A stretch of 64,000 nt of DNA. Source: Methylocella tundrae (GTDB lineage Bacteria; Pseudomonadota; Alphaproteobacteria; Rhizobiales; Beijerinckiaceae). Location: NCBI RefSeq assembly GCF_901905185.1, contig NZ_CABFMQ020000087.1, positions 124,001 through 188,000 of the forward strand. Direction: 5' to 3'. Position 1 is the stretch's first letter, and each line of letters opens with the position of its first letter. The notes beneath the pieces were generated by a model, which was not told where the DNA came from, searched no databases, and worked only from the letters and a program-made list of their open reading frames with translations. Position numbers and translations under genes: made by a program. This document shows, piece after piece, positions 15,719 through 39,704 of the stretch.

Positions 15719-17890
15719 CTAACCGGCGATGCGGGAGAGATCCGCGACCTCGTTCACCACGCGGCGCAGGCGCGCAAACAGCCGCAGCCGATTGAGCCGA
15801 AGTTCCGGGTCCGGCGCATTGACCGTCACCTTTTCGAAAAAGGCGTCGACCGGCGCGCGGAGCGAGGAGAGCTCCGCCATCGCGTCTTCGAACGGCCTTT
15901 GACCATCGAACCCCGGCCGTCCGACGCGCTCTTCCGCAAGCCGCAAATGCCTGCGCGCCTCGATGGCGAGGCTTTCGATCTTGTCCCACAGCGCGACTTC
16001 TTCCGGCTCTTGCAGCAAAGAGCGGTCCGGCGCTCCTTCGAAGGCGCCAATGGCCTCTTTCTTTTCTTCCGCACGCAAAATATTCGTGGCGCGGCGATAG
16101 CCCGCCAGCAGATTGACTCCATCTTCCGTGTCCAGAAAGCCGCCGAGCGCCTCGACGCGGCGGACGATCAGCAGCAGATCGTCCTGGCCCGGCAGAGCGA
16201 AAACCGCGTCGATCAGATCATGGCGGGCGCCGCGCTCGCGCAGATAGATTTTTAGGCGGTCCCCGAAAAAGGCGAGAAGCTGGGCGCAGATCTCTTCTTC
16301 CTCAACGCGCAACGCCGAGCGATCCAAAGCGCCCTGCCCGACATGATGCGAGAAGGCGGAACGTAAAATCGGCAGAAGCGGCAGCCGCAGTCTGTTTTCG
16401 AGAACGAGCGCAATCACGCCAAGGGCGGCGCGGCGCAAAGCGTATGGATCCTTGCTGCCGGTCGGCTTTTCGTCGATCGCCCAAAAGCCGACCAGAATGT
16501 CGATTTTGTCGGCCAGCGCGACGGCGACGGCGACGAGCGCATTTGGCACCCGATCGTTCGGCCCTTGCGGTTTGTAATGATCCTCGATCGCCTCGGCGAC
16601 TTCAGTGCGCTCGCCCTGCGCGAGCGCGTAATAGCGGCCCATCAGTCCCTGCAGCTCGGGAAACTCGCCGACCATTTCAGAGGGCAGATCCGCCTTGGCG
16701 AGAAGCGCCGCGCGACGGGCGACTTCAGGGTCGGCGCCGATTTTTCCCGCGATGTCTTCCGCGAGCCTGACAAGCCTTCCGACCCGCGCGCGTTGCGTGC
16801 CGAGCTTTTCATGAAACACGACAGAATCAAGCTTTATGAGACGATCCTCAAGCTTGATCTTAAGATCCGTCTCCCAGAAAAACTTGGCGTCCGACAGGCG
16901 CGCGCGCACCACGCGGGCGTTGCCGGCGGCGATCGCGGCCCCGCCGTCGCTGGCGTCGATATTCGCCACCAGAGCGAATTTATGGGCGAGCCGGCCCGTC
17001 GTCGCATCGCTCAGTACGAAACATTTCTGATTGGCGCGAATGGTCGCGCGAATGACCTCCGGCGGAATTTCGAGAAAGGCCGGATCGAATTCGCCGATCA
17101 GCACGACCGGCCATTCGACCAGTCCAGCGACCTCATGCAGCAAAGCCTCATCCTCGATCAGCTCGAGGCCCTGCGCGAAGGCGAGATCGCGCGCGTCATG
17201 AAGGATGATGTTGCGCCGGCGCGCGGGATCGAGCACCACCTTGGCTTTTTCGAGGGCTGGAGCGTAATCGTCGAAACGGCGCACGAGAATTGCCCGCGGC
17301 GCCATGAAGCGATGCCCGTAAGTGACATTGCCGGCGGCGATCCCATCGACTGAAAAGGGCACCACCTCCGGGTCTTCCGTTTCCGGTCCGAAAGTGGCGA
17401 GGATCGAATGCAGCGGGCGCACCCAACGCAGCGAATCCGGCCGGATCGACGCCGCGCCCCAGCGCATCGACTTCGGCCAGGGAAAGCGCCTGACGACCGA
17501 GGGCAGAAGCTCGGCCAGAACCTCGATCGTCGCCTGCCCCTTGCGTTCGACGACCGCGATATAGAATTCGGTCTTTTTCTTCGGGTCCACTTCGATCTTC
17601 GCTTCGGAAATCGAAGCAAGGCCGGCGCTTTTCAAAAAGCCCTGCACCGCCGCGTCGGGCGCGCCGACGCGCGGGCCCTTTTTTTCCTCCCGCACGTCCG
17701 GCTGGCGCGCCGGCAATCCGGCGACATGCAAAGCGAGCCTGCGCGGCGTTACAAAACTCGCGGCGCCCTCGAACGCAAGGCCACGCTCGCCCAAAGCCTC
17801 CGTGACGAGACGTTTCAAATCATCGGCCGCCTGCGCCTGCATACGGGCCGGAATTTCCTCGGAAAACAATTCAAGAAGGAGGTCGGGCAT
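15719..17890 (-). CDS. glyS: Glycyl-tRNA synthetase beta subunit
   Basis: A 723-aa subunit of the bacterial alpha2beta2 glycyl-tRNA synthetase, responsible mainly for tRNA recognition and needed for charging. Marker segments: '[25 protein letters not shown]' start, '[21 protein letters not shown]' (about 141-160), 'YGHRFMAP', '[21 protein letters not shown]', and the C-terminal anticodon-binding part ending '[16 protein letters not shown]'. Length is as expected. The usual partner glyQ lies upstream on the same strand but is separated by 792 bp holding an opposing secreted-protein gene. Confidence 0.97.
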
Positions 17891-18135
17891 GATCTCGTTT
17901 CGGTTTGGGCTCAGTCTTCGCGACCTCGACCGGAGGAAACCAGCCGGGCATGCGTCCGCCGCTCGAACCGTTGACTAAGCTCTGAATTTCCCTTCGCCAA
18001 GCGGAAATTTGGTCTCAGAGCGCCCCGCATCGGCCGCTTTGGAGTCGATCACGCAAATTGTGCATTCGATTCGGGCGCCCCGAGGGAACATGGAAAGCGC
18101 CCAGGCGTTGCCATAACTCCTATGGAGGCATTGCT

Positions 18136-18663
18136 ATGAACACTCCAAGATTTCTTGCGCTTTCTGGCGCGGCCTTGATTGCCTTGACCTCAAGCGTTTC
18201 CGCGGGTCCCATGAGCATAGCGACCAGCGGTGTGGCGCCGCCGACGCAGTCTCAGATCGAAACGGTCGCCTACCGCCGCCATTACCGTCACTACGCCCAT
18301 GGGCGCCATTACCATCACTACGCCTATCGGCGCCACTACTACGGCGTAAATCCCGGCGCGGCTATCGCGGGCGCGGCGCTCGGCGCACTTTCGCTCGGCG
18401 TGACAGCAGCGACGCTTGGCGACTGCGGCTTTTATGGCTGCGGATATGGCTATGGCGGCCCATATTACGGCGGCTACTATGGCGGCGGGCCCTATTATGG
18501 CGGCGGCTACTACGGTGGACGCTATGCGGGATGGGGCGGCGGAATGCGCACCGGCCGCAGCGTCGGCTTTGGCCATGCGGGCGGTTTCCATGGCGGTGGG
18601 TTCCACGGCGGCGGCGGAGGCTTCCATGGCGGAGGTTTTCATGGCGGCGGCATGCACCGCTGA
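18136..18663 (+). CDS. His/Tyr/Gly-rich secreted protein between glyQ and glyS
   Basis: A 175-aa exported protein of low complexity. Signal peptide residues 1-23 (MNTPRFLALSGAALIALTSSVSA); a His/Tyr/Arg-rich segment follows (YRRHYRHYAHGRHYHHY, about 46-62); next an Ala/Gly hydrophobic stretch with one or two Cys (GDCGFYGCGYG); then Gly/Tyr repeats (GGPYYGGYYGGG) and a GGFHGGG tail. The many His side chains suggest metal binding, which is an inference. GGAGG lies 8 nt before ATG 18136. It runs opposite to glyQ and glyS, so the synthetase pair is interrupted. Related small proteins lie at 19962 and 20410. Confidence 0.7.
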   Translation: MNTPRFLALSGAALIALTSSVSAGPMSIATSGVAPPTQSQIETVAYRRHYRHYAHGRHYHHYAYRRHYYGVNPGAAIAGAALGALSLGVTAATLGDCGFYGCGYGYGGPYYGGYYGGGPYYGGGYYGGRYAGWGGGMRTGRSVGFGHAGGFHGGGFHGGGGGFHGGGFHGGGMHR

Positions 18664-18682
18664 CCCCTTGCCTCGCGCCTGA

Positions 18683-19657
18683 TCAGTCCTGAACGAGACC
18701 ATCTCCGCCGCCGGCCGCCGTCTTGAGCCAGGCGGCGCCGCAGGCCTTGGCGAGTTCGCGAACGCGCAAAATGTAACTCTGCCGCTCGGTGACGGAGATG
18801 ACCCCGCGCGCATCGAGCAGATTGAAGAGATGCGAGGCCTTGAGGCATTGGTCATAGGCAGGCAATGCCATCAGATGGCGCCCACCCCGATCGCCCGCCG
18901 CGAGCAGAGCCGCGCATTCGGCTTCGGCGTCGCGGAAATGCTGGAAGAGAAGCTCGACATTGGCCGCTTCGAAATTATAGCGCGAGTATTCTTCCTCGGC
19001 CTGCTTGAAGACATCGCCGTAAGTGACCTTGCTGTCTCCTTCGCCGCCGTTGAAATTAAGATCAAAGATGCTTTCGACGCCCTGCACATACATGGCGAGG
19101 CGCTCCAGCCCATAGGTCAATTCACCTGAAACCGGAGCACATTCGATCCCTGCGACCTGCTGAAAATAGGTAAATTGCGAGACCTCCATGCCATCGCACC
19201 AGCACTCCCAGCCAAGGCCCCAGGCGCCGAGCGTCGGGCTTTCCCAATCATCCTCGACGAAGCGTATGTCGTGCAGGCGCAGATCGACGCCAATCGCCTC
19301 GAGCGAACGCAGATAGAGCGACTGAAGATCGGGCGGCGACGGCTTCAGGATCACCTGAAACTGATAGTAATGCTGCAGCCGGTTGGGGTTTTCGCCGTAA
19401 CGCCCATCCTTTGGCCGGCGCGAGGGCTGCACATAGGCCGCCTTCCACGGCCGCGGACCGAGCGAGCGCAAGGTCGTGCCCGGATGAAATGTCCCGGCGC
19501 CGACTTCCATGTCGTAAGGCTGCAGGATGACGCAGCCCTGCGCCGCCCAGAATTGCTGCAGGGTCAGCAGGAGGCCTTGAAACGAACGTGATGGAGCGAG
19601 CGCTTGGGGCGCCGCTTTTTGGGTGGATAAGGAGGTTTCGTGCGCAAGGTCGGTCAT
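18683..19657 (-). CDS. glyQ: Glycyl-tRNA synthetase alpha subunit
   Basis: A 324-aa class II synthetase subunit that forms glycyl-adenylate. Recognisable motifs: '[35 protein letters not shown]' (about 24-58), '[34 protein letters not shown]' (motif 2 region) and 'GLERLAMY' (motif 3). Full family length with a modest N-terminal extension. It should cooperate with GlyS despite the inserted opposing gene. Confidence 0.97.
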
Positions 19658-19961
19658 GAGGCGCCTTGTATCGCTACTCGGGATCGCATGGAAGAGCGAT
19701 TGCGCCAGCGACGCGTCGACGGAACGATAAGCTCAAAAGGTCAAGATGGCGGTTCAGACAGCATGATGATCGAAGTCACGGTCGCGCCTGGGCAATTGTC
19801 AAGGCTATGTCATAATACTTTAAGTTGAAAAACAAAATGCCTGTAAAAACAAGTTTCCCATTGCGTGATGCTAACTTTCAATGCACGCTTTCATGGGAGA
19901 TGATTGTTGCAAGTCAACTGGTCTCTTGATCCTCCAACGCTTGCGCTTCCGGGAGGGATAA
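19658..19961. other. Intergenic region, glyQ / secreted protein
   Basis: A 304-bp divergent region between glyQ and the Tyr-rich gene at 19962. It holds no convincing gene. It is visibly AT-richer than its surroundings around 19800-19900 and ends with a GGGAGGG Shine-Dalgarno before ATG 19962. Promoters for both sides are expected here, but no motif is clear enough to place. Confidence 0.4.
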
Positions 19962-20270
19962 ATGAAATTTCATTGCCTATTGGCTTCCGCCGCCCTCGCC
20001 GCTTCAGTGTTTTTCATAGGCGACGTCGCCGTCCAGGCCACTCCGGCCTCCGGTCTTTCACAGGCCGGGTCCAGCATCCGCGCTTTGGAAACGCCCGCCG
20101 CTCAGCAAGGCGTCGAAAAGACCTATTACTACCGTCGCTATTACCATCGGCGCTATTACCACCCTTATTATCGCCATTACTATCGGCGCCATTACTATCG
20201 CCCTTATTATCGCAGACATTATTACCATCCATACTATCATCGCTACCGCTATTATCGTCCGTTTTACTGA
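19962..20270 (+). CDS. Tyr/Arg/His-rich secreted protein
   Basis: A 102-aa exported protein: signal peptide residues 1-27 (...AVQA), a short linker with 'SSIRALETPAAQQGVEKT', then about 48 residues composed almost wholly of Tyr, Arg, His and Pro in a YYRRxYxP-like rhythm (residues 55-102). Function unknown; the clustered aromatic and basic residues could bind metals, polyanions or cell envelope polymers (inference). Paralogue-like proteins occur at 18136 and 20410. The DNA of the tail is a degenerate tandem array of TATTACC/CGC-type units. Confidence 0.7.
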   Translation: MKFHCLLASAALAASVFFIGDVAVQATPASGLSQAGSSIRALETPAAQQGVEKTYYYRRYYHRRYYHPYYRHYYRRHYYRPYYRRHYYHPYYHRYRYYRPFY

Positions 20271-20306
20271 TAGACAGGCCAGAGTGCTTTCCGCCTGAAT
20301 GAAATC

Positions 20307-20332
20307 ATTGGAGCGATTGAAATCGCTCCAAT
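20307..20332. repeat. Palindrome with ATT-GA-AAT core
   Basis: A perfect 12-bp inverted repeat, ATTGGAGCGATT-ga-AATCGCTCCAAT, 36 bp after the Tyr-rich gene stop. It could act as a transcription terminator without a T-run. The same core arrangement occurs in the hairpin at 30188-30213. Confidence 0.6.
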
Positions 20333-20346
20333 ATCAGAAGTTTGAG

Positions 20347-20390
20347 CATATTCTTGTCGATCAGATTAAAACGATCTGATCGGAATATGC
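20347..20390. repeat. Dispersed palindromic repeat, family B, copy 1
   Basis: A long imperfect inverted repeat: GCATATTC-ttgt-CGATCAGAT-taaaacg-ATCTGATCG-GAATATGC. It ends 19 nt before the ATG of the next secreted-protein gene. A homologous element in reverse orientation is at 26545-26600, so it is a mobile-type or structured intergenic repeat rather than a gene-specific operator. Confidence 0.65.
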
Positions 20391-20409
20391 TGTGGATAGG
20401 GATGAAAAC

Positions 20410-20634
20410 ATGCGTAGATTTGCAAAGATTTTGTGGGCCGCCGGAGCGCTTTGCGGCTTCGGTTTTGGCCTTGCGGGGCTGGCGCAGGCAATGCCGATGG
20501 CGGCCAGCGGGATCACGACCGCCGGGAGCCCGGCCTCCGCCGTGGAAAAAGCGCATTATTATCACCGTCACTATAACTATCACCACCATTACTATCATCA
20601 CCATCACCACTACTATCATCGCAGGGGTTGGTGA
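20410..20634 (+). CDS. His/Tyr-rich small secreted protein
   Basis: A 74-aa exported protein. Signal peptide residues 1-26 (MRRFAKILWAAGALCGFGFGLAGLAQA), a short Ser/Ala linker, and a C-terminal 28-residue tail built from His and Tyr (HYYHRHYNYHHHYYHHH...), ending RRGW. Metal binding is a reasonable guess from about 15 His; nothing confirms it. ATG 20410 with AGGGA upstream is preferred to an in-frame GTG at 20392. Third member of the local His/Tyr-rich family. Confidence 0.6.
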   Translation: MRRFAKILWAAGALCGFGFGLAGLAQAMPMAASGITTAGSPASAVEKAHYYHRHYNYHHHYYHHHHHYYHRRGW

Positions 20635-20702: not shown

Positions 20703-21476
20703 CTACCAATCAATCGCCGCCTCGCCGCGGTGAATCGCTTCGGCCATCGCCGTGAATCGCGATCCTTCGTGTAGCGTCAGCGCCGGCGCGATCGACAAGG
20801 GCGCGCGGCTGCCCTTTTTCGCGCGCAGAAGAATGCGGATCGCCGGCGCGCCCTCGCGCGCATGCACGGGCAAGACGGTGACGCCCCCCGCGCGTCCCTC
20901 AAGGCTCGCAAGAATCGCGGCGAGATTTTCCGGCCGGTGAATAAGGATGAATGATCCGCCGGGCCGGGCGAGCGCGAGGCAGGCGGCGATCCATGCCTCG
21001 AGCGCGCCCGCGCCCTCTCCCGGCATCACATGGGCGCGGCGTTTGCCCTCGTCGGGCGATGGGCGCGACCGGCGCGCATCGAAAAAAGGCGGATTGGAGA
21101 TCACAAGTCCCGCGCTTTCATCGGCGAGGCCGGCGGCCCGGCGGCTTCGCGGAGAAAGCGCATCGGCTTCGAAGACCTGCCCGCGATCCGGCATTCCGTT
21201 GAGAACGAGATTTTCCCGCGCGAGATCCGCGGTCCGCGGATCATTCTCGATCAGACCGACTTTCGCGCCTCGCCGCGTCAAGGCGAGCGTCAGGCCGGCG
21301 GCTCCGACGCCCGAACCCACGTCAAGCGCCAAACCGGCATATTCCGCTGGCGCCGCGGCGGCGAGCAAGATCGCGTCGGTGCCGGCGCGATGGCCGCGCT
21401 CAGGCTGGCGCAGGAAGAGCCGCCCGCCCAGAAATGCGTCCGGCTCGCGTGAGCGGGCCTGCGCCGGTTCAGCCAT
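20703..21476 (-). CDS. TrmN6-like tRNA/N6-adenine methyltransferase
   Basis: A 257-aa Rossmann-fold SAM methyltransferase. 'LALDVGSGVGAAGLTLALTRRG' is motif I; NPPFF is the N6-adenine methyltransferase catalytic motif (N-P-P-[FY]). The best match by layout is tRNA1(Val) adenine-37-N6 methyltransferase (YfiC/TrmN6). ATG 21476 (MAEPAQ...) is chosen because the longer frame to 21554 overlaps the DUF2007 gene extensively. It overlaps that gene by 8 nt and is probably cotranscribed with it. Confidence 0.8.
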   Translation of the reverse strand: MAEPAQARSREPDAFLGGRLFLRQPERGHRAGTDAILLAAAAPAEYAGLALDVGSGVGAAGLTLALTRRGAKVGLIENDPRTADLARENLVLNGMPDRGQVFEADALSPRSRRAAGLADESAGLVISNPPFFDARRSRPSPDEGKRRAHVMPGEGAGALEAWIAACLALARPGGSFILIHRPENLAAILASLEGRAGGVTVLPVHAREGAPAIRILLRAKKGSRAPLSIAPALTLHEGSRFTAMAEAIHRGEAAIDW

Positions 21477-21693
21477 CGGATAATTCCTCGGAGAGCCCGC
21501 CCTCGGCCAACGCCGCGCGGGCTTCCGCCGCATCGTCCTCCAGGACCAGAACACGCCGCGGCAGAAAGCCCAGCGATCCCTCCAGCGCGCTCATATGCTG
21601 ATCGGCGATGAAGATATCGATGCCGGCTTCACGAAGGATTGCTTCGACCAGAGAAATCAGCACAAGGTCGTTGGTGCGCAGCAGTTCGACCAA
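21469..21693 (-). CDS. DUF2007-family putative signal-transducing protein
   Basis: A 74-aa protein with the DUF2007 pattern: 'MVELLRTNDLVLISLVEAILREAGIDIFIADQHMSALEG' followed by 'RRVLVLEDDAAEARAAL'. The ferredoxin-like fold resembles PII-interacting or GlnB-like domains, but no role is established. It commonly sits beside the small-subunit-like methyltransferase in Hyphomicrobiales, as here, and diverges from the prenyl synthase gene. Confidence 0.85.
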   Translation of the reverse strand: MVELLRTNDLVLISLVEAILREAGIDIFIADQHMSALEGSLGFLPRRVLVLEDDAAEARAALAEGGLSEELSDG

Positions 21694-26544: not shown

Positions 26545-26600
26545 TTATCGATCGGATCGGTTCAATCTGATCGATAAGAACATGTTCAAGCTTTTCAAAC
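26545..26600. repeat. Dispersed palindromic repeat, family B, copy 2
   Basis: An inverted repeat TTATCGATCGGAT-cggttca-ATCTGATCGATAA (one mismatch) followed by AGAACATGTTCAAGCTT. The reverse complement aligns across about 45 bp with 20338-20390 (GAACATGTTCTTATCGATCAGATT versus GAGCATATTCTTGTCGATCAGATT). It lies in the gap before ispE. Confidence 0.65.
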
Positions 26601-38957: not shown

Positions 38958-39197
38958 TCGCGTCTCTGTGAATCAATCGGACATTCCCCCAAATAGCGCT
39001 GGTCCCGTCCCTGGTTCGGGACGGGCTGGCTCTTCGTTCAGCGCCGCACCATAGCGCTTCTTTCCTGGTCTTGGGCCCGAACAGAGGTTTTGGCCGCACG
39101 GACAGTTGTTCGAGCAGCGAGGAAACCGCAGCGAGCGACGCGGCGTTATCGTGCTAGACGCATGGTGCGACTCATCGCGGAACTGGAGATGCGGACG

Positions 39198-39704
39198 ATG
39201 CGCTGGGGACAACATATGGCAATCGTCTTGGCGTTCGTGGCGCCCGCGGTGACGGGCGGGTCCCCTTCGATGGCGTCGCCCCGCGCGCGTCACATAAGCG
39301 CTCATCATGTCGAAGCCCGTAGCGTCGTCCGCGGCACATACGCCTCACACCGCATGCGCGGGCGGCTCACAACGGTTCGGCGGCATGGCCACTTTGCCGA
39401 ACTGGTCGGTGATCCGGGCAGCGGATACGGCTTTTACCCCTTGCCCTGGGTCTATCGCGCCGGCGCATGGCGCGCGCGGCAAAGACGGGCGATGGCCTCC
39501 GCCGAGGCCATCGGCGTCGCCGTCGCAAGCACGGCCATTTACAGCTATGGCTTCCCCTATGGCGACGACTATGGCTTTGGTCATCACCACGGGGTGTTTA
39601 ATCCCATTGATGGCTATGGCACGCCCTTTTTCGCGGGCTATTACGGCCCCGCCGGCGGCGCCGGCCGGGAACGCGGACCATTTGGAACTCCCTACAACAA
39701 CTAG
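39198..39704 (+). CDS. His/Gly/Tyr-containing exported protein
   Basis: A 168-aa protein with a signal peptide (MRWGQHMAIVLAFVAPAVTGG, cleavage near PSMASP) and a C-terminal half rich in Gly, Tyr, His and aromatic residues (GDDYGFGHHHGVFNPIDGYG, FFAGYYGPAGG). Function unknown; composition resembles the His/Tyr-rich group at 18-20 kb but with less repetition. GGAG lies 9 nt before ATG 39198; an ATG 9 nt earlier overlaps that GGAG and is less likely. Confidence 0.6.
   Translation: MRWGQHMAIVLAFVAPAVTGGSPSMASPRARHISAHHVEARSVVRGTYASHRMRGRLTTVRRHGHFAELVGDPGSGYGFYPLPWVYRAGAWRARQRRAMASAEAIGVAVASTAIYSYGFPYGDDYGFGHHHGVFNPIDGYGTPFFAGYYGPAGGAGRERGPFGTPYNN

Follow-up and report, generated by a model that had tools for sequence, protein, structure and literature searches.

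Predicted exported proteins rich in His, Tyr, Arg, and Gly around glyQ in Methylocella tundrae, one of them preceded by a conserved sigma-EcfG-type promoter motif

We analyzed a 64,000-nucleotide stretch of the Methylocella tundrae genome (contig NZ_CABFMQ020000087.1, positions 124,001 to 188,000; here called the window) in which three small genes, A, B, and C, lie around glyQ, the gene for the glycyl-tRNA synthetase alpha subunit. All three are real genes that have been kept for a long time. Their predicted products are exported proteins with tails dominated by a few amino acids. By sequence, B and C are paralogues, the tail of B is constrained in composition, and A is preceded by a promoter motif of the type recognized by the general stress sigma factor EcfG. 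We tentatively favor the view that they act in the cell envelope.

The genes were compared across a genus set of 15 genomes, among which G000 is the window's own genome (4.52 Mb) and G014 is from the same species. A glyQ match was present in 13 (window included), and synteny was counted in those 13. A lay on the glyS side of glyQ in 12 of the 13 neighborhoods (it was not found in G007); glyS was itself present in the stretch for 11 of these 12, the stretch of G011 being without it, and tandem second copies of A occurred in G011 and G012. B was located on the opposite side of glyQ in 12 of the 13 genomes (not found in G003), and C followed B in 7 of the 13. A further C-like open reading frame (ORF) in G009 has a doubtful start and is outside this count. 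Given that the positions around glyQ were kept across the genus, A, B, and C are not chance ORFs. Furthermore, purine-rich ribosome sites precede the ATG codons at 18136, 19962, and 20410, and a Sec-type signal peptide opens each protein, as called by our own simple rule (hydrophobicity plus an A-x-A site) and not by SignalP. The first-pass annotation, which had placed three genes for signal-peptide proteins around glyQ, was borne out on these points.

B consists of a signal peptide, a prefix ending in VEK, and a 49-residue tail that starts at residue 54 (Y, 23; R, 13; H, 7; P, 4; T, 1; F, 1). The tail of C has 27 residues (H, 12; Y, 8; R, 3; W, G, A, and N, 1 each). The mature parts of the three proteins had been described as almost only Tyr, His, Arg, or Gly, which is true of the B and C tails and not of the whole mature parts: after residue 30, these four amino acids make up 62% of A, 65% of B, and 59% of C. 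The share is moderate because each protein has an ordinary prefix and A also has an Ala/Gly-zipper helix.

We collected 12 B tails from 12 genomes (11 species; 612 residues). They contained 232 Tyr, 146 Arg, 105 His, 55 Trp, 42 Pro, 13 Gly, 10 Ala, and nine other residues, with no D, E, K, C, I, Q, or M. Each tail had 10 to 14 Arg, 20 to 31 Tyr plus Trp, 3 to 14 His, and 0 to 11 Trp (Tyr, 25 to 47%), and its net charge was +10 to +14 in all 12 genomes. All six Arg codons were used, indicating that the tails are not a codon repeat alone. Residues outside the set YHRWPGFA numbered 7 of 612, compared with 13%, 25%, and 37% in neutral simulations of the window's B tail at 0.1, 0.25, and 0.5 substitutions per site, in which a stop codon arose in 51%, 75%, and 87% of runs, respectively. 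The observed difference at 4-fold degenerate sites of glyQ between G000 and nine congeners was 0.33 to 0.52 (pairs with >100 sites; G000-G013, G000-G005, and G004-G005, with 11 to 19 sites, were left out). At the sequence level, these results show that the amino acid makeup of the B tail is constrained.

The C tails (7 genomes; 201 residues) contained 103 His (6 to 27 per tail) and 6 D/E residues, with a net charge of -2 to +4, and were strongly poly-His in G001, G002, G008, and G012; between G000 and G014, the C tail did not change at all. For A after residue 44, the ratio of nonsynonymous to synonymous substitution rates (dN/dS) was approximately 0.05 (G000-G014) and 0.11 (G004-G005). Random drift of the tails among relatives, named in the first-pass annotation as evidence that would count against function, was largely not seen, considering the B-tail simulations and the low dN/dS of the A tail. 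Judging from these alignments, B seems to be held for positive charge plus aromatic residues and C for histidine, not for an exact sequence. A PDB sequence search with the B alignment returned no match at E values up to 1.

The three genes had been regarded as not obvious paralogues. We compared profiles of the mature prefixes, with the signal peptide removed and at most the first few tail residues kept. B against C scored 29.0 (best of 100 column-shuffled controls, 11.5), while lower scores were obtained for B against A (15.3; best control, 11.3), C against A (16.3; 10.5), and pooled B/C against A (16.6; 9.8). The likeness between A and B/C was limited to a ten-column junction, [IV]-E-x-[AV]-x-Y. 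When signal peptides were kept, the A and B/C profiles aligned with a probability of 96.9, part of which is owed to those peptides. Searching with the whole B protein found C (E, 8.9e-5), the low-complexity tails being part of the match, and the A profile found C in its own genome (E, 7.7e-8). Elsewhere in the family, Beijerinckiaceae, L056/L087 and L065/L077 were found by both the A and the B/C profiles, and L077 joins a C-like junction (VEKAHYRRYY) to an A-like zipper. On this sequence evidence, B and C are tandem paralogues, contrary to the earlier view, and A, which shares only the junction with them and is differently built, is a cousin at most.

A comprises, in order, a signal peptide, a prefix (GPMSI...QIETVAYRR), a His/Tyr/Arg stretch, a glycine-zipper helix (approximately residues 73 to 94 in a low-confidence AlphaFold2 model), a Gly/Tyr region, and a C-terminal tail of TGRSVGFG followed by GGGFHGGG (GGxHGGG repeats); one D and one E are the acidic residues of the whole protein. 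AlphaFold2 produced no confident fold (mean predicted local distance difference test score, 42.9 for A and 54.7 for B). Searches of Pfam and NCBIfam with A, B, and C yielded subthreshold matches only, the best of which (E, 0.08; a channel helix) was disregarded, and PF07886 (BA14K) did not match any of the three at E values up to 1. However, 3 of the 10 relatives submitted exceeded the PF07886 cutoff of 26 bits (44.8 to 58.7 bits), and all three end in the BA14K domain; two (L080 and L096) had been reached by the A profile in family genomes and one (L053) via the B/C profile.

A resembles BA14K proteins in its signal peptide, short prefix, junction of the [IV]-E-x-V-x-Y-R type, cationic His/Tyr/Arg stretch, and glycine-zipper segment and in being linked to EcfG by promoter motif or control. 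It differs from them in lacking the 30-residue C-terminal BA14K motif, in place of which it ends in TGRSVGFG and the GGxHGGG repeats; B and C have neither the zipper nor the promoter motif. Because relatives found by the A profile carry the domain and the promoter motif matches EcfG control, A is BA14K-like by architecture and predicted control, yet it is not a PF07886 member. The notion of an unexplored family thus stands for B and C as far as Pfam and NCBIfam are concerned and fails for the A type, which grades into the known BA14K group. Enterobacteria also have glycine-zipper envelope proteins (OsmB and SlyB), which are lipoproteins under other regulators and offer an analogy to A in small size, export, stress link, and zipper helix. 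In Brucella abortus, dps, ba14K, and rpoH are given in PMC12354254 (citing Kim et al. 2014) as the three genes most activated by EcfG, and a heat shock table for Mesorhizobium loti in PMC3989490 has a BA14k gene in its fifth row (M-value, 5.82).

NF047414, the 62-position model of the His-rich protein BRANT, matched a distant A relative (L091, residues 5 to 53) at 20.1 bits, far below its cutoff of 44 bits; it did not match A, B, or C, and none of the 149 family genomes had a hit above the cutoff. At other loci in the genus, four A-type proteins (L018, L020, L024, and L025) share TGRSV and, after it, end in a cysteine-rich module (CATPVKTCLLY...GCSCKV), and their genes have an EcfG-type site 90 to 93 bp before the start (strict in three, loose in one, as defined below).

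The promoter motif of A was assessed by its recurrence. We defined a strict form (GGAAC-N16/17-CGTT) and a loose form (GGAAC-N17/18-GTT); the EcfG consensus given for Sphingomonas melonis in PMC6599016 is GGAAC-N17-20-GTT. The window contained two strict sites (0.9 expected). The genus has 14 A genes at this locus, counting 12 orthologues and 2 tandem copies; 9 of them had a strict site and 12 a strict or loose site within 100 bp upstream. In 2,000 sets of shuffled A upstream regions, the means were 0.012 strict and 0.05 strict or loose (largest value, 2 each), and among plain 100-bp windows of the same loci (A's own included), 36 of 11,118 had a strict site and 51 of 11,118 a strict or loose site. 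Another seven A-type genes were taken from the genus: five from other loci plus those of G006 and G010, which have no glyQ match (the second A-like ORFs seen in G003 and G009 were left out). Within 150 bp, six of the seven had a strict site and all seven a strict or loose one. For other genera of the family, the 24 loci best matched by the A profile (L076 to L099) were used; 23 of them provided 24 A-like genes, L093 having no clear ORF. Of these genes, 6 had a strict site and 9 a strict or loose site within 130 bp (means after shuffling, 0.05 and 0.12). At the order level, three of six loci were resolved, with one strict motif, at L106, whose protein ends like a BA14K protein.

No EcfG motif was found within 260 bp upstream of any of the 12 B or 7 C orthologues, and among 15 distant B/C-like genes (i.e., without those B/C-profile loci outside the genus that were A-type, BA14K-type, or lacking a clear ORF), none had a strict site and one had a loose site. 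These counts show that A carries a conserved predicted sigma-EcfG promoter motif and that B and C do not. In the aligned upstream regions of B and C, a block (TTGC...AATGCAC; window 19854-19890) recurs by eye before B in 7 of 12 genomes and resembles no promoter or regulator type that we recognized. The window's own genome has phyR, nepR, and ecfG in their usual order at L102 (phyR and ecfG being identified by their sequences and gene order), with an EcfG motif also before nepR-ecfG, and NepR (Pfam PF18557) was detected in all 15 genus genomes.

The site between glyQ and trmN, which holds B and C, was surveyed beyond the genus. At E values up to 1e-3, the A profile matched 51 of 149 family genomes (20 of 43 genera) and the B/C profile matched 35 of 149 (19 of 43 genera), the weak B/C matches including A-type and BA14K-type proteins and probably chance ones; in the order, the A profile matched 10 of 249 genomes at 1e-5, six of them outside the family. 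In five more genera, B/C-profile matches adjoin trmN (L045 to L052, L059, and L066), with glyQ in the stretch too except at L047. We then sampled 40 other genera with one genome apiece. The selection was not blind: for at least five genera, the genome was picked with a match already known (G023, G045, G058, G104, and G142). Fourteen of the 40 had no trmN on that side within the stretch and five had a gap of <250 bp, leaving 21 usable sites. By an automatic rule, 11 of these encode an exported protein with a two-Cys C terminus, 3 one with a His/Tyr/Arg/Trp tail (one with two Cys inside), and 7 neither; without the five preknown genomes, the counts were 9, 1, and 6 of 16. Of the seven sites with neither, those of G050 (two-Cys) and G058 (an aromatic His/Tyr tail) do show such a gene in a looser listing.

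The 13 aligned two-Cys ends, exemplified by CRIRYTAWGPRRVC, have their cysteines 12 or 20 to 21 residues apart, the second being preceded by R-[VIR]. Two-Cys exported cationic proteins were seen at this site at L118, L126, L127, L134, L135, L138, L142, L144, L147, L148, L152, and L154. Ten relatives from the site had no match above the cutoff in Pfam or NCBIfam (one irrelevant match, E 0.22). In a weakly resolved GlyQ tree (11 of 50 inner branches well supported), the two-Cys and Cys-free types need two changes each, and the tree favors neither as the older form. On the glyS side, the survey script picked out no A-type ORF in any of the 40 genera. In G134, an ORF in the glyQ-trmN gap (L149), thus at the B site, opens with FHGGG repeats like those of the A tail and has a strict EcfG-type site. 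In another genus, L055 encodes an exported protein with a sequence resembling a twin-arginine translocation (Tat) signal (RRGFL; Tat signal matches were below the cutoff) and a tail of YYRRRYWRPRR.

The features of the locus are listed in Table 1. The conserved neighbors that we identified (glyS, glyQ, the trmN-like gene, and a polyprenyl synthase gene; not searched against family libraries) include no metal gene. The nested palindrome just before C looks like an extragenic repetitive palindrome; a second, imperfect copy of its core lies 6 kb away, at 26550-26572 (none expected from shuffles). An Rfam scan of the window identified one tRNA and nothing else. Outside the cluster, the window contains another exported-looking ORF (39162-39704, + strand; 180 amino acids) rich in Gly, Tyr, His, and Arg. 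Among the titles and abstract openings returned by searches of open-license PubMed Central papers, none described such a cluster.

Table 1. Genes and sequence elements of the glyQ region (window positions)
Feature	Position	Strand	Description
glyS	15719-17890	-	Context gene on the A side of glyQ
Sigma-EcfG-type motif of A (GGAAC-N16-CGTT)	18085-18109	+	Starts 51 bp before the ATG; 26 bases between motif end and ATG
Ribosome binding site of A (GGAGG)	18124-18128	+	Read from the window sequence
Gene A	18136-18663	+	175 amino acids; ATG start; predicted exported protein
glyQ (glycyl-tRNA synthetase alpha)	18683-19657	-	Named from sequence and glyS-glyQ order
Gene B	19962-20270	+	102 amino acids; ATG start; predicted exported protein
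Inverted repeat GGAGCGATT...AATCGCTCC	20310-20329		Between B and C
Nested palindrome AGCATATTC/GATCAGAT...ATCTGATC/GAATATGCT	20345-20391		Immediately before C
Gene C	20410-20634	+	74 amino acids; ATG start; B paralogue with His-rich tail
trmN-like methyltransferase	20703-21482	-	Far-side marker of the B/C site; label from sequence only

On balance, the reading that we prefer, tentatively but as one that may well be right, is that A, B, and C belong to the envelope as exported proteins that are largely unfolded, each composed of a prefix and a tail defined by its composition. The general stress response (PhyR-NepR-EcfG) would switch on A, which would insert or oligomerize in an envelope membrane through its glycine-zipper helix, and its His/Tyr/Arg and Gly/His segments would overlie that membrane as an envelope stabilizer in times of stress. 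B would be a polycation made to charge (10 to 14 Arg amid 20 to 31 Tyr/Trp, acidic residues and Cys being absent) that binds anionic envelope polymers (lipopolysaccharide phosphates and peptidoglycan) by charge and aromatic stacking. C may be a variant whose tail has turned into a His polymer, binding transition metals and/or buffering protons in an acid-dwelling cell. The first-pass annotation had suggested either metal or lanthanide binding or a structural role in the envelope, and the signal peptides, the stress sigma motif of A, its relation to BA14K, and the charge of the B tail point to the latter as the better half of that guess.

Several observations weigh against this reading. The strict motif is not enriched genome-wide (62 matches versus 123 for the reversed pattern), so that a single EcfG site means little and the weight lies on recurrence at the same position; such recurrences in relatives, in turn, are not independent observations. 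The motif is absent from the A orthologue of G009, from one tandem copy in G011, and from 15 of the 24 distant A-like genes, and the nepR site is weak by itself, a match also arising in 38 of 200 shuffles of that locus. The window's A has no BA14K domain. For the B tail, dN/dS was approximately 0.14 (G004-G005) on five changes only, and G000 and G014 differ by one amino acid change and no silent one; with so few changes, the case for constraint comes from composition and not from dN/dS. The lipopolysaccharide or peptidoglycan binding proposed for B is a prediction from composition.

It is possible, although unlikely, that the His/Tyr-rich tails of all three proteins instead serve as periplasmic Cu/Ni/Zn buffers, as poly-His proteins do elsewhere. 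Hpn is one such metal-binding protein, and several C orthologues resemble it in having a poly-His tail. C has the His-rich segment expected of poly-His metal-binding proteins (7 genomes), with 6 to 27 His per tail and poly-His tails in the four genomes named above, and A ends in GGxHGGG repeats; metal binding by the His-rich C is therefore plausible from its sequence. C differs from Hpn-type proteins in carrying a signal peptide and in how much its His content varies. Against this reading, the His count of B varies from 3 to 14 while Arg stays at 10 to 14, the identified conserved neighbors (not searched by family) are not metal genes, and the promoter motif of A is of the general stress type. 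Binding or delivery of lanthanides for methanol dehydrogenase is hardly credible. Lanthanide sites prefer carboxylates, and D/E residues number 0 of 612 in the B tails, 6 of 201 in the C tails, and 2 in the whole of A. Acidic metal-binding loops of the lanmodulin type were not seen, and A, B, and C had no Pfam or NCBIfam family match above a cutoff. Given their lack of acidic residues and their charge, the B tails fit a disordered polycation on anionic envelope polymers, and lanthanide binding is disfavored, even though M. tundrae T4 is reported in PMC6522787 to have xoxFJG, encoding a lanthanide-dependent methanol dehydrogenase.

The positive charge and aromatic residues of B, together with the two-Cys cationic modules that end its same-site relatives in several genera, would also suit a secreted antimicrobial-like peptide. 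We regard this as improbable: a housekeeping locus kept over many genomes is unlike that of a typical bacteriocin, no immunity or export genes came to notice (no search was aimed at them), and any resemblance to beta-hairpin host-defense peptides is tentative. There is a small chance that the Tyr-rich tails form an insoluble envelope or matrix layer through dityrosine cross-links, as the Tyr content of the B tails and the Tyr/Gly-rich A might suggest; however, Trp replaces Tyr in several genomes, and a nearby cross-linking oxidase was not noticed, though none was searched for. That the tails are functionless by-products of codon-repeat slippage is very unlikely. They are indeed of low complexity, variable in length, and written with few codons, but the B tails are free of acidic residues and Cys, use every Arg codon, and stray from the YHRWPGFA set far less often than simulated ones, and both the low dN/dS of the A tail and the conserved synteny argue against slippage.

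The envelope reading that we prefer can be extended to the family, as a long shot. The glyQ-trmN junction of Beijerinckiaceae would keep an exported peptide, cationic, aromatic, and quick to evolve, with an interchangeable C-terminal module (either two-Cys or a nearly or wholly Cys-free Tyr/His/Arg/Trp tail). This peptide would be the cell's own nonlethal lipopolysaccharide-binding polycation, taking in dilute acidic waters the role that Mg2+ bridging has elsewhere, with C as a metal- or proton-binding offshoot and A as a stress-induced membrane partner.

Alphaproteobacteria have many low-complexity exported proteins, most of them unnamed. The locus offers three handles on them: a predicted regulator (EcfG) for one class of such proteins; evidence for selection on composition (charge, aromatics, no acid, and no cysteine) over sequence; and a fixed genomic site that allows one kind of peptide to be traced through several genera. 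The A type is also tied to the BA14K proteins, which are poorly understood and which appear as strongly stress induced in the data cited above from PMC12354254 and PMC3989490.

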